Both the position numbers and the translations under genes were made by a program. A DNA stretch of 64,000 bases, from assembly GCF_001043175.1 (NCBI RefSeq), contig NZ_CP011494.1:3596001-3660000 (forward strand). The letters run 5' to 3'. The notes under the pieces are model-generated. The model worked only from the letters and a program-made list of their open reading frames with translations. It had not been told where the DNA came from and made no database searches. This document shows, in pieces, positions 34,872-37,774 of this stretch. Each line of letters opens with the position of its first letter. Within the stretch, counting starts at the first letter, position 1. This stretch comes from Marinobacter psychrophilus (lineage in GTDB: Bacteria; Pseudomonadota; Gammaproteobacteria; Pseudomonadales; Oleiphilaceae).

Positions 34872-35543
34872 ATGAACACGTTCTGGCCAGAATTTCTGAT
34901 CGTCGTTTTAGTGCATTTTCTGGCGGTCGCCAGCCCCGGACCCGACTTCGCGGTTATGTTGCGCCAGGCATTGTGCCAAACCCGCGCAAACTCGCTGTTA
35001 ACGGCCGCAGGCATAGGCGCGGGGATTTTAGTGCATGTGGCTTATTCACTGTTGGGCATAGGGCTGCTTATTCAGCAATCGGTGCTGCTGTTCAGCATTT
35101 TGAAAGTGATTGGCGCTCTGTATCTGACGTGGATTGCGTTGCAATGCCTGCGTGCCAAGGCCGGAGGGGTTTACGTGGAGGCTGCAAAAGCACCGCATCA
35201 AAGCCGCTTGGCCGCGCTGCGCCTGGGCTTTTTGACGAACGCGCTCAACCCCAAAGCTACGCTCTTTTTTGTCTCGCTGTTTTCGGTGATTATCAGTCCC
35301 GGCACGCCGGTTATTGTACAAACCGGCTATGGCCTGTACATGGCTTTAGCCACTTTTTTGTGGTTTAGCCTGGTGACTGTGTTCTTTAGCCAACCAAGGG
35401 TGCGCAGGGGCTTTAACCGTTTCGGTCACTGGCTGGACCGGCTGATGGGCGGCGTGCTGCTGCTTTTGGCCGGTCAGTTATTGCTGTCTACAGTGAGCGG
35501 ATCAGAGCCTCTGTCTGCTCCCATCCCAGGCACGGATCGGTAA
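34872..35543 (+). CDS. LysE/RhtB family amino acid exporter
   Basis: Starting at ATG 34872, with AAGGAG nine bases upstream, gives 223 residues. The LysE signature HFLAVASPGPDFAVMLRQAL is near residues 16-35, and GFLTNALNPKATLFFVSLFS near residue 135; there are about six membrane segments. Members export lysine, arginine, threonine, homoserine or similar compounds. Its last 56 bases overlap the 3' end of the DAHP synthase gene on the other strand, so its C-terminal tail (EPLSAPIPGTDR) is encoded antisense to conserved synthase sequence. Confidence 0.88.
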   Translation: MNTFWPEFLIVVLVHFLAVASPGPDFAVMLRQALCQTRANSLLTAAGIGAGILVHVAYSLLGIGLLIQQSVLLFSILKVIGALYLTWIALQCLRAKAGGVYVEAAKAPHQSRLAALRLGFLTNALNPKATLFFVSLFSVIISPGTPVIVQTGYGLYMALATFLWFSLVTVFFSQPRVRRGFNRFGHWLDRLMGGVLLLLAGQLLLSTVSGSEPLSAPIPGTDR

Positions 35544-36570
35544 TCGAGCAGCCGTATTGAAGGTCAGCGCCGTCGTTCTGGCGGCCCGGCTGTAAAAAGC
35601 TTTCCAACATTAGCCCACAAATGTGGCGATTGCCAGCGCGCCGTTGGGCGACCACATCGCGGGCTATTTCCTGCTGGCGCTCGTGTTGCTTGCAGGCGTT
35701 ATCGTGGCTGCAGTCCACCATCACCGCCGGATTCAGGCCTGCCTGCTGCAGCGCATGGGTCGCGCGGGCAATGCTGTGACTGTCGTAATTGGTGATACCG
35801 CGACCGCCGCGCAAAACCAGATGGGTGTCAGCGTTGCCCTCTGTAGAAATCATTACCGGCGTGCCTCGGGCAGACAGCCCGGGATGATGGTGGCCGTGGG
35901 CCGCGGACTTCATCGCATTGGTGGCCGCCGCGATGCCGCCGTCGGTGCCATTTTTAAAACCCACCGGCATTGGCAAGCCGCTGGCCATTTCGCGATGCAG
36001 TTGCGATTCAGTGGTGCGGGCACCAATAGCCGTCCAGCTCACCAGGTCCCCCAGGTAATCCATAGCAAACGGGCTCAGCGCTTCCGTGGCTAGCGGCAGG
36101 CCGGTGGCCGCCAGATTCAGCAACAACTGCCGCGAGCGCACCAAGCCTTGATGCAAATCGCCCTGCCCGTTGCGCTCAGGATCGTATAACAAACCTTTCC
36201 AGCCAACTGTGGTGCGAGGTTTCTCCAAGTAGGCGCGCATCACAATCAACATACGGTCACTAACCTCCGCCGCAAGCTGTTTCAGCCTTTGCGCGTATTC
36301 CAGTGCGGCCACCTCGTCGTGAATGGAACATGGCCCGATCACTACCAGCAGGCGGTCGTCCGCTCCATTAAGGATATTACGAATCGCCTGGCGCTGATGT
36401 TCAACCTGTGCTTCAAGCTTCGCCACTAGCGGAAAATTCCCGCGCAACTGATCAGGCGTGGGCAAAGCCACCTCGCGGCGACGGGCTGGGGTAATTTTTA
36501 CCGCATGTTCTGCGTCGCTTTTTACGGCATTCTCTATCGGATTCTCAACAGCAATTAATGGCATATTCAT
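35488..36570 (-). CDS. 3-deoxy-7-phosphoheptulonate (DAHP) synthase, class I
   Basis: It condenses phosphoenolpyruvate with erythrose 4-phosphate, the first step of aromatic biosynthesis. The 360 residues show VVIGPCSIHD near residue 75, MRAYLEKPRTTVGWKGL, GARTTESQLHREMASGL, VGFKNGTDG and MVDCSHDNACKQ, all AroF/G/H signatures. ATG 36570 is preferred; the frame upstream runs through the attenuator. The C-terminus (GWEQTEALIRSL) ends several residues earlier than I expect for this family. Which aromatic amino acid inhibits it cannot be told. The upstream leader peptide and terminator point to control by aromatic amino acid supply. Confidence 0.93.
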   Translation of the reverse strand: MNMPLIAVENPIENAVKSDAEHAVKITPARRREVALPTPDQLRGNFPLVAKLEAQVEHQRQAIRNILNGADDRLLVVIGPCSIHDEVAALEYAQRLKQLAAEVSDRMLIVMRAYLEKPRTTVGWKGLLYDPERNGQGDLHQGLVRSRQLLLNLAATGLPLATEALSPFAMDYLGDLVSWTAIGARTTESQLHREMASGLPMPVGFKNGTDGGIAAATNAMKSAAHGHHHPGLSARGTPVMISTEGNADTHLVLRGGRGITNYDSHSIARATHALQQAGLNPAVMVDCSHDNACKQHERQQEIARDVVAQRRAGNRHICGLMLESFLQPGRQNDGADLQYGCSITDPCLGWEQTEALIRSL

Positions 36571-36601
36571 GGCGGTGTGTCCGTTTCCCTGTTCCAAAAT
36601 C

Positions 36602-36636
36602 AAAAAACCCCGGCTGGGCTACCAGTCGGGGTTTTT
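36602..36636 (-). terminator. Attenuator terminator before DAHP synthase
   Basis: On the minus strand, CCCCGACTGG, loop TAGC, CCAGCCGGGG (one A-C mismatch) is followed by six T residues, ending 31 bases before the synthase ATG. A second hairpin (GGCAGCC / GGCTGCC, 36676-36649) lies just upstream. No gene ends nearby on this strand, so this terminator sits in a leader and would cut off the synthase transcript unless prevented. Confidence 0.82.
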
Positions 36637-36698
36637 GAGTCCGGTGGCAGCCTGGGTGGTCTGCCGGGCTGCCTTCCTCGTTGTTCGGTGATGAAGAT

Positions 36699-36764
36699 CT
36701 AAGGGCGGCCCGGGGTCTGGCTAAAATAAAAGCCATAGTCGCGCCACCAAAACGAAACAGCCAA
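36699..36764 (-). CDS. Putative aromatic leader peptide controlling DAHP synthase
   Basis: A 21-codon ORF starts at TTG 36764 and stops at TAG 36699. It encodes FWWRDYGFYF at residues 5-14: seven aromatic residues (three Phe, two Trp, two Tyr) in ten. It lies 62 bases before a Rho-independent terminator and about 130 bases before the DAHP synthase start, the geometry of a ribosome-mediated attenuator. Stalling at these codons when charged Phe, Tyr or Trp tRNAs are scarce would alter downstream folding and allow readthrough. The start is a weak point: TTG with no strong ribosome site, and no in-frame ATG or GTG upstream. The peptide itself is probably not functional. Confidence 0.65.
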   Translation of the reverse strand: MAVSFWWRDYGFYFSQTPGRP

Positions 36765-36940
36765 TGCTGCAGCTAACGGTTCACTACCGAAAGCTTGCTG
36801 AACATTTAATTGGCAAATTGCTGGCTGAGTCTTCATGCTTTTTACTATAACCGGCCTGTTTTCAACTTGGCAACCACTTATGCAAAGTTTTTATCTGGCG
36901 CTGTCAATAGCAGGCACCTGCCCAAACCGCGGAGTACTCC

Positions 36941-37774
36941 ATGACTTGTCCCCGTATTTCCCGACTCACAGCGCCAAACGTAATGGCGCTGTTTATTACG
37001 TTCCTCCTGTTTTTGGTTTCAGCCAATGCCTTTGCGGCCAGCCAAAGCCGGGCTTACAACCTGAACCAACGCCCGGCTGCTGATGTGGCGGCGCAAATTC
37101 GCGATCTTTACGAAGAAGTAAATGTCACCGTTGTCGGGCAGAAAATTGTAGCTCGCGGGGAGACTCGCCTACTGGACGAGATCGGTCAAATTATTCAGCA
37201 ACTGGACGTTGCTACGGCACAGCTACGCATCAGCGTGCAGTCTCGGGAGAATCTCGGCGGTAAACGTAGCGGTGGCGGCGTCAATCTGACTCAAAATAAC
37301 GCGTCAAGTAATCGCAACATCATTAATAGCAATACAGTCACCATAAATGCGCAGAGCAAAACGATCAGATCATCCGGCAATCGCGAGCGCTCATTAATTG
37401 TGCAAGACGGACAATCGGCTCAGGTCAGTGCCGGCCAGATTCGCAGCTTGCCGTTCGCGGCCCGTGGCGGCCGAAATCCAGCTGTATTGTTGCAGCTGGT
37501 GGAAACCCGCAGCGGCTTTGTGGTTACTCCGCGGATGATTTCACCGCAGAATATAGAACTCAGTATTATGTCGTTTGAGCAAGACGCCCCTGCCATGCCC
37601 GGTTATGACACGGAAGCGCTAATGACCATTCGCCAGGTTCAACCCGGGCAATGGGTTTCTCTGGGTGGTGTTGACCGCAGCGAAAACCACGAAAATTCCG
37701 GCATTGTGTACCAAGTTAATAGCAGTGAAAATCACACCAGCGAGATTCGCGTGCGGGTGGACATTCTGCCCTAA
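36941..37774 (+). CDS. Secretin-like periplasmic protein (short, no full secretin barrel)
   Basis: ATG 36941 has GGAG seven bases upstream. The 277 residues begin with a signal peptide ending near ANAFA (about residue 31). A secretin N-domain follows (RAYNLNQRPAADVAAQIRDL to QIIQQLDVATAQLRISVQSR, about 35-105), then an Asn/Ser-rich linker and a C-terminal region whose LMTIRQVQPGQWVSLGGVDR resembles the last strands of secretin modules. Full secretins exceed 400 residues, so an outer-membrane channel is not expected. Related short proteins occur beside other genes in pseudomonads by recollection. The function is unknown. It converges on the J-domain gene with 3 bases between. Confidence 0.7.
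   Translation: MTCPRISRLTAPNVMALFITFLLFLVSANAFAASQSRAYNLNQRPAADVAAQIRDLYEEVNVTVVGQKIVARGETRLLDEIGQIIQQLDVATAQLRISVQSRENLGGKRSGGGVNLTQNNASSNRNIINSNTVTINAQSKTIRSSGNRERSLIVQDGQSAQVSAGQIRSLPFAARGGRNPAVLLQLVETRSGFVVTPRMISPQNIELSIMSFEQDAPAMPGYDTEALMTIRQVQPGQWVSLGGVDRSENHENSGIVYQVNSSENHTSEIRVRVDILP

Follow-up and report, generated by a model that had tools for sequence, protein, structure and literature searches.

The window analysed here, a stretch of 64,000 nucleotides (nt) of Marinobacter psychrophilus (NZ_CP011494.1, positions 3,596,001-3,660,000), carries on its minus strand a gene for 3-deoxy-D-arabino-heptulosonate 7-phosphate (DAHP) synthase, preceded by a putative transcription attenuator with a leader peptide rich in aromatic residues (Table 1). 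The leader open reading frame (ORF) runs from an ATG at 36836 to a stop codon ending at 36699, and its C-terminal end reads FWWRDYGFYFSQTPGRP. On its 3' side stands a GGCAGCC/GGCTGCC hairpin (36673-36667 paired with 36652-36646), followed by an intrinsic terminator, CCCCGACTGG/CCAGCCGGGG plus six T (36631-36602), of which the T-run ends 32 nt short of the ATG of the synthase gene (36570). An earlier note on this DNA had pointed out the residues FWWRDYGFYF, seven aromatic out of ten, in the minus-strand frame ending at 36699, as well as both hairpins, and all of these are found in the sequence. The same note had read the leader as 21 codons starting from a TTG at 36764; the leader itself and its place before the synthase hold, but this TTG is an internal codon, made unnecessary as a start by the conserved 45-codon frame from the ATG.

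Table 1. Features of the putative attenuator and the regulated gene, in positions of the window.
Feature	Positions	Strand	Basis and remarks
-35 box TTGCCA	36868..36873	-	promoter scan; TTG-type -35 in place in 74/74 Marinobacter-group sequences, window included
-10 box TATAGT	36844..36849	-	7 nt before leader ATG; putative leaderless start
Leader peptide gene, 45 codons, MKTQPAICQLNVQQAFGSEPLAAALAVSFWWRDYGFYFSQTPGRP	36699..36836	-	ORF list, conservation and pN/pS
Sensor run, codons F29-F38, FWWRDYGFYF	36723..36752	-	translation; kept in relatives
Segment B, CCGGGCCGCC, codons P42-P45, pairs with C	36704..36713	-	column counts, duplex swap test, folding
Segment C, GGCAGCCCGG, pairs with D (off) or B (on)	36664..36673	-	alignment and swap test
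Segment D, GGCTGCCA, pairs with C (off) or E (on)	36645..36652	-	alignment and swap test
Segment E, CCCCGACTGGTAGCC, terminator 5' arm and loop, pairs with F (off) or D (on)	36617..36631	-	alignment and swap test
Segment F, CCAGCCGGGG, with T-run: 3' half of intrinsic terminator	36602..36617	-	terminator and alignment
Class I DAHP synthase gene (aroFGH type), regulated gene	35488..36570	-	TIGR00034, 443.9 bits (cut-off 173.2)

To follow the leader across relatives, the best 80 of 179 synthase-encoding loci were kept (73 named Marinobacter, one Tamilnaduibacter and six others, namely Halovibrio, Thalassolituus and kin), of which L010 was dropped since its sequence begins 25 bases before the synthase gene and holds no upstream region. 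An aromatic leader precedes the orthologous DAHP synthase in all 79 named loci with upstream sequence, with a consensus over 26 rows of MKTxxAxCQLNVLxAFGxxPxAAVAAVFFWWFGYGFYFSQxPGRP. A search of 391 genomes of the order Pseudomonadales showed, among the matches listed, the synthase gene in other families too, and upstream stretches were taken for 62 of the closer matches, which come from 62 other Pseudomonadales genomes and belong to the orthologue group, and for 18 of the lower-scoring ones (a second DAHP synthase group). Every one of the 62 orthologue-group loci has an aromatic leader, 55 detected by motif scan and seven by eye, in forms such as YFFYGYWFSQRRA, FYFGYWFSRSRA and FWYWGYWFSAGVPAARS. 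The recurrence in 79/79 loci and the contrast between sense and antisense upstream regions in the motif scan (55/62 versus 2/62) place the leader above chance. The conservation of aromatic codons and hairpins that the earlier note had suggested looking for in relatives is thus found. In the second DAHP synthase group the motif scan detected a leader in none of the 18 loci; this group is not entirely free of the element, however, because L232 (716-925) and L239 (minus strand) carry divergent aromatic leaders, GFSWQGFFTYFYM and GWWFTYFKS, with a C:D-type hairpin and a terminator.

Within the window's own genome the peptide occurs once, and an RNA model (R1), built from an alignment (A2) of 39 thinned rows, four of them re-cut by hand to correct the frame, and containing no loci of families f3, f222 or f4, scores 131.1 bits at this locus and at most 29.2 bits elsewhere. 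Judging from scores for the Rfam family P15 (see below) and general taxonomy, f3 appears to be Pseudomonas-like and f4 Halomonas-like. Among 369 genomes of the class, a peptide profile matched only the window's own, the Marinobacter-like profile not being expected to detect the Pseudomonas form; within the order, 28/390 genomes matched at an E value of 0.05. Eight of the 12 profile-matched loci outside the genus adjoin a DAHP synthase gene, and the four that do not (E 0.007-0.012) are taken as chance matches. NCBIfam holds no family matching the leader peptide.

By its pattern of substitution, the leader ORF is translated. Among 45 distinct leaders of 45 codons the ratio of nonsynonymous to synonymous change (pN/pS) is 0.43 over the whole ORF; it falls to 0.20 in the aromatic run, and codons 1-17 have 0.38. 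Segment B lies in the last seven codons, where the ratio is 0.89 with a pS of 0.103, and such scarcity of synonymous change is expected if the RNA of segment B is constrained. In the last 19 codons of the Marinobacter leaders, Phe and Tyr are written largely with U-ending codons (TTT for 291/323 Phe, TAT for 150/156 Tyr), compared to 83/315 and 92/398 in the synthase gene; the lean is weaker elsewhere (TTT 34/45 in f3 and 20/35 in f222). This preference in the sensor run, in the window (36723-36752) and its relatives, may reflect slow decoding or a lack of RNA structure.

Upstream of the leader, TTGCCA stands 18 nt before TATAGT, and TATATT, TATAGT or TATGAT lies exactly 7 nt before the ATG in 72 of the 74 Marinobacter-group sequences. 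The promoter scan on its own was not above chance (two found, 1.2 expected); it is the conservation of these boxes that gives weight to the promoter call. A Shine-Dalgarno match of -6 kcal/mol or below within 14 nt of the leader ATG is present in only 1/74 sequences of this group, and the window leader has no Shine-Dalgarno site within 14 nt upstream of its ATG. Widening the search to 20 nt gives stronger values in the Marinobacter group (mean -6.0), which are due to GG-rich stretches farther upstream that are too distant for initiation and lie 5' of the inferred transcript start. The Marinobacter leader is therefore likely translated leaderless, without a Shine-Dalgarno site. In five f3, f222 and f4 loci examined a GGAG precedes the leader start, in contrast to Marinobacter. 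Between the leader stop and segment C, the window has a purine-rich, Shine-Dalgarno-like stretch, AACGAGGAAGG (36675-36685), which is kept in Marinobacter and has no start codon behind it.

Comparison of the RNA points to two mutually exclusive states: an off state made of C:D and the terminator E:F, and an on state made of B:C and D:E, a relay like that of the his attenuator. On alignment A2, C:D and E:F have 96.0% of cells paired and six double-change pairs, compared to 3.1 in shuffled alignments (reached in 3 of 500), with a covariation score above all 500 shuffles. For B:C and part of D:E four double-change pairs were counted (13 of 500 shuffles); the column count for these helices is weak because MAFFT splits segment E in Marinobacter, hence the use of a hand-made heptamer table and of a duplex swap test. 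In the table the D:E heptamers covary: GGCTGCC:GGTAGCC in Marinobacter, GACTGCC:GGCAGTC in Thalassolituus-like loci, AGCTGCT:AGCAGCT in L211 and GACTGCT:AGCAGTT in L179. A mismatch is kept in L194, L217, L172 and L073, and one base is lost in L028. In family f4, D:E reads GTGCTGCC:GGCAGCAC (L213, L218) and B:C takes the forms GGCGTGCC:GGCACGCC (L201), GGTGTGCC:GGCACACC (L198) and GGCACGCC:GGCGTGCC (L213, L218).

The window, the 79 named loci and the 62 orthologue-group loci gave 142 sequences, of which six failed the terminator pattern with their leaders still visible (L196, L197, L210, L215, L220, L225) and twelve were dropped for a wrong frame or the lack of a clean terminator fold (L005, L008, L019, L034, L035, L053, L174, L180, L199, L221, L226, L227), leaving 124 for the energy tests, and 110 (swap test) or 117 (switch-distance correlation) after removal of duplicates. 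The swap test compared the mean strength of own partners with that of cross-family swaps in eight groups. Own partners were stronger for C:D, B:C and E:F in all eight groups and for D:E in seven, compared to two and three groups for the unproposed pairings C:E and B:D. The four helices B:C, C:D, D:E and E:F are thus present, and both the heptamer covariation and the swap test support an antiterminator that is exclusive with the terminator. Helix A:B occurs in the P15 consensus and is imperfect by eye in the window.

Folding was then simulated for a ribosome that occupies 12 nt counted from the A-site codon, on RNA transcribed as far as the end of E. At this stage, with F still to be made, the window is predicted to form B:C plus D:E when codons 28-31 or 36-38 occupy the A site, and C:D from S39 on. 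Over the 124 loci, aromatic codons gave the on state 486 times, the off state 158 times and were undecided four times; the corresponding figures for other codons are 187, 891 and 134. The last on codon coincides with the last aromatic codon in 67/124 loci and lies within one codon of it in 90/124, and the position of the switch tracks the distance of the aromatic run from the stop codon (Spearman 0.57 over 117 sequences, not corrected for kinship). In the model, then, a stalled ribosome favours the antiterminator, with the fold flipping at, or close to, the final aromatic codon in the majority of loci.

We consider it highly probable that this element is a ribosome-mediated transcription attenuator, through which the supply of charged tRNAs for Phe, Tyr and Trp governs expression of the DAHP synthase. 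Comparison among relatives supports the leader, its aromatic codons, the helices and their geometry; tRNA sensing, termination in the cell and the direction of control are what we infer. Transcription would start at or beside the leader ATG, and the leader would be translated without a Shine-Dalgarno site. When one or more of the three tRNAs run short, the ribosome would pause in the aromatic run with its edge leaving segment B exposed; free B would pair with C, and the released D would pair with E before F is made, so that no termination occurs and transcription continues into the synthase gene. With all three tRNAs plentiful, the ribosome would proceed and cover B, C:D and then E:F would form, and RNA polymerase would halt at the T-run. 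The proposal in the earlier note of an attenuator reading Phe, Tyr and Trp is well supported by the conserved codons (pN/pS 0.20), the co-changing helices and the predicted fold switch.

Several results weigh against this reading. Pairing in B:C and part of D:E (91.9%) hardly differs from that in shuffles (91.3%; 29 of 500); slid controls pair in at most 43.1% but still give two to five double-change pairs. In the swap test, own partners were also stronger for the unproposed D:F in six of eight groups and for B:D in three; the D:F result calls for caution, because segments that share partners look alike. Swaps within families were near chance except for E:F (0.72), so that the test bears on change between families only. 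As for the simulation, with window codons 32-35 in the A site B:C forms without D:E, and once F is made E:F is the minimum-energy fold of the window at every ribosome position, which implies that the switch must be kinetic. Six of the 124 loci never reach the on state, in 28 the switch comes two to four codons late, and the predicted switch moves by one codon for each 3 nt of assumed footprint. Finally, in the per-group codon averages (up to 12 sequences each, 12 of 68 in Marinobacter) the Marinobacter sample leans off at codons F-14 to G-11, including Y-12, so that in Marinobacter the positions read would be -16/-15 for Trp and -10 to -8 for Phe/Tyr.

An arrest by the nascent chain, of which TnaC is an example, would place the signal in the leader peptide itself together with free aromatic amino acids rather than in hungry codons. 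The G, S and Q residues flanking the aromatic run are conserved as well, and so is the N-terminal half (pN/pS 0.38), as such a switch would have it; yet how many F, Y and W occur, and in what order, varies freely among families (FFWWFGYGFYF, YFFYGYWF, FWYWGYWF) and the residues after the run differ, the constant being aromatic codons at the proper distance from segment B. We therefore regard peptide arrest as improbable. The N-terminal half of the leader (MKTTHATCQLNVLQAFG type, window 36756-36836 and relatives) shows conservation at the protein level in Marinobacter, yet the attenuator model does not need it.

Two of the other alternatives bear on the Rfam family RF00627 (Pseudomonas sRNA P15, for small RNA). 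Of 20 loci given, ten matched this family above the cut-off (94-126 bits) and four below it, all 14 belonging to f3, f222 and f4, and the remaining six (Marinobacter-like and others) had no match at E 0.1; the window scores 17.9 bits, under the gathering cut-off of 70. RF00627 is matched in 47/391 genomes of the order, 22 of them above the cut-off, and in 0/14 control genomes, and 46 of these 47 matches lie 55-339 nt upstream of an orthologous synthase match on the same strand. The sole match without an adjoining orthologous synthase is G824:C1:4642218-4642354 (family f198), at 33.1 bits and below the cut-off. Conversely, model R1 finds all 24 f3, f222 and f4 loci given (of 51 fetched), 23 at E values of 0.0034 or below and L198 at 0.017. 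By this synteny and these R1 matches, and not by the window's RF00627 score, we read P15 as a homologous element, the Pseudomonas form of the same attenuator: it shares with the window the gene neighbourhood, the aromatic leader codons, a C:D-type hairpin and a terminator, and differs in being catalogued as an sRNA gene and in the GGAG before the start of five f3, f222 and f4 leaders.

That the terminated leader is mainly a trans-acting small RNA or small messenger, comparable to rnTrpL of Sinorhizobium, and that its position ahead of the synthase is secondary, would agree with the listing of P15 in Rfam as an RNA gene, with the conserved N-terminal half of the peptide and, according to the accessible part of one report, with attenuator products that can work in trans (PMC7298713). 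Against it, the same-strand position upstream of the orthologous synthase in 46/47 cases and the conserved features fit control in cis, and a function in trans is compatible with attenuation rather than exclusive of it; as the main role of the element it seems to us as improbable as peptide arrest. A ligand-binding riboswitch, which Livny and co-workers in 2008 guessed for P15 from synteny only, as far as the consulted part of their paper goes (PMC2527527), is very improbable, since the conserved part consists of a translated aromatic run and alternative stems and no Rfam riboswitch matched 36000-37500 even at a permissive threshold. The simpler fold put forward in the earlier note, in which leader codons pair straight with the terminator 3' arm (B:F) in place of the B:C and D:E relay, is equally far-fetched as the main alternative, for own B:F pairs exceed cross-family swaps in Marinobacter (-11.9 versus -10.3) but are weaker in the other seven of eight groups, and B:C, which with D:E is better supported, surpasses B:F in strength in all eight groups.

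A second short aromatic ORF (Y..WRFS type) lies between terminator and synthase in 46 of the 62 non-Marinobacter loci scanned, including 16/16 of family f3; an example is MNTTYYRYYRNSDWRFSSALRATQRALPRTLR in L189 (from 856). By eye there is no obvious second T-run terminator, and the window has no room for a second leader. It is conceivable, though we would not favour it, that in much of the Pseudomonadales the synthase stands under tandem leaders, a tri-aromatic transcription attenuator followed by a second aromatic leader controlling synthase translation, and that the first peptide adds a function in trans through its long, conserved N-terminal half; translational control by the second ORF is a guess. 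If this held, ribosomes would read the supply of all three end products in two stages at the entrance to the shikimate pathway.

Carbon destined for Phe, Tyr and Trp is committed by DAHP synthase, and a single RNA reading the supply of all three together would be a simple solution to the control of a shared pathway, for which E. coli employs the TyrR and TrpR repressors with three isoenzymes. The catalogued 'sRNA' family P15 would gain a function, and the attenuator predicts how Pseudomonas-like and Marinobacter strains adjust their aromatic output. We take PA1750 to be the P. aeruginosa synthase in question. The main text of a study of P. aeruginosa 3' ends mentions neither PA1750 nor P15 (PMC8297930). 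A literature search, with most subscription journals outside it, returned no description of a Pseudomonadales DAHP synthase attenuator nor of P15 with such a function. New features appear to be a single leader holding all three aromatic residues, the relay of his type, the start without a Shine-Dalgarno site and the identity of P15.

Among known systems, the his attenuator has segments A to F, with A:B, C:D and E:F in the off state and B:C and D:E in the on state. Like this attenuator and the trp and phe attenuators of enterobacteria, the window has a leader peptide, a terminator and mutually exclusive helices; it differs in the gene controlled, in serving three amino acids and in its longer peptide, and the likeness drawn here is one of scheme. 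Matches below threshold to Rfam His_leader, sar and other families were rejected, the His_leader match being at chance level and on the plus strand. The ilvGMEDA and thr attenuators of E. coli each read one leader for several amino acids, branched-chain or Thr/Ile, which the window element resembles in its multi-amino-acid leader and from which it differs in being aromatic. A survey of Shewanella, in the portion available, lists aroF with an 'attenuator sensing tyr-tRNA' and refers for it to a study of E. coli from 1980 (PMC2659441). In Sinorhizobium trpL (rnTrpL/peTrpL) and in Streptomyces leader genes, the excerpts consulted describe a transcript that begins at the ATG (PMC7298713, PMC8079986); these leaderless genes resemble the window element, where leaderlessness is deduced from promoter spacing alone, and unlike it they encode shorter peptides for a single amino acid. 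The aroR-aroF system of Corynebacterium glutamicum is, in the sections of the reports at hand, a DAHP synthase attenuator with a Phe-Tyr-Phe leader (PMC11802643, PMC4046766). As described there, it shares with the window a leader gene with aromatic codons ahead of a DAHP synthase gene, a likeness drawn from the leader description, and it differs in belonging to an actinobacterium and in a reported motif without the Trp codons that the Marinobacter leader contains.
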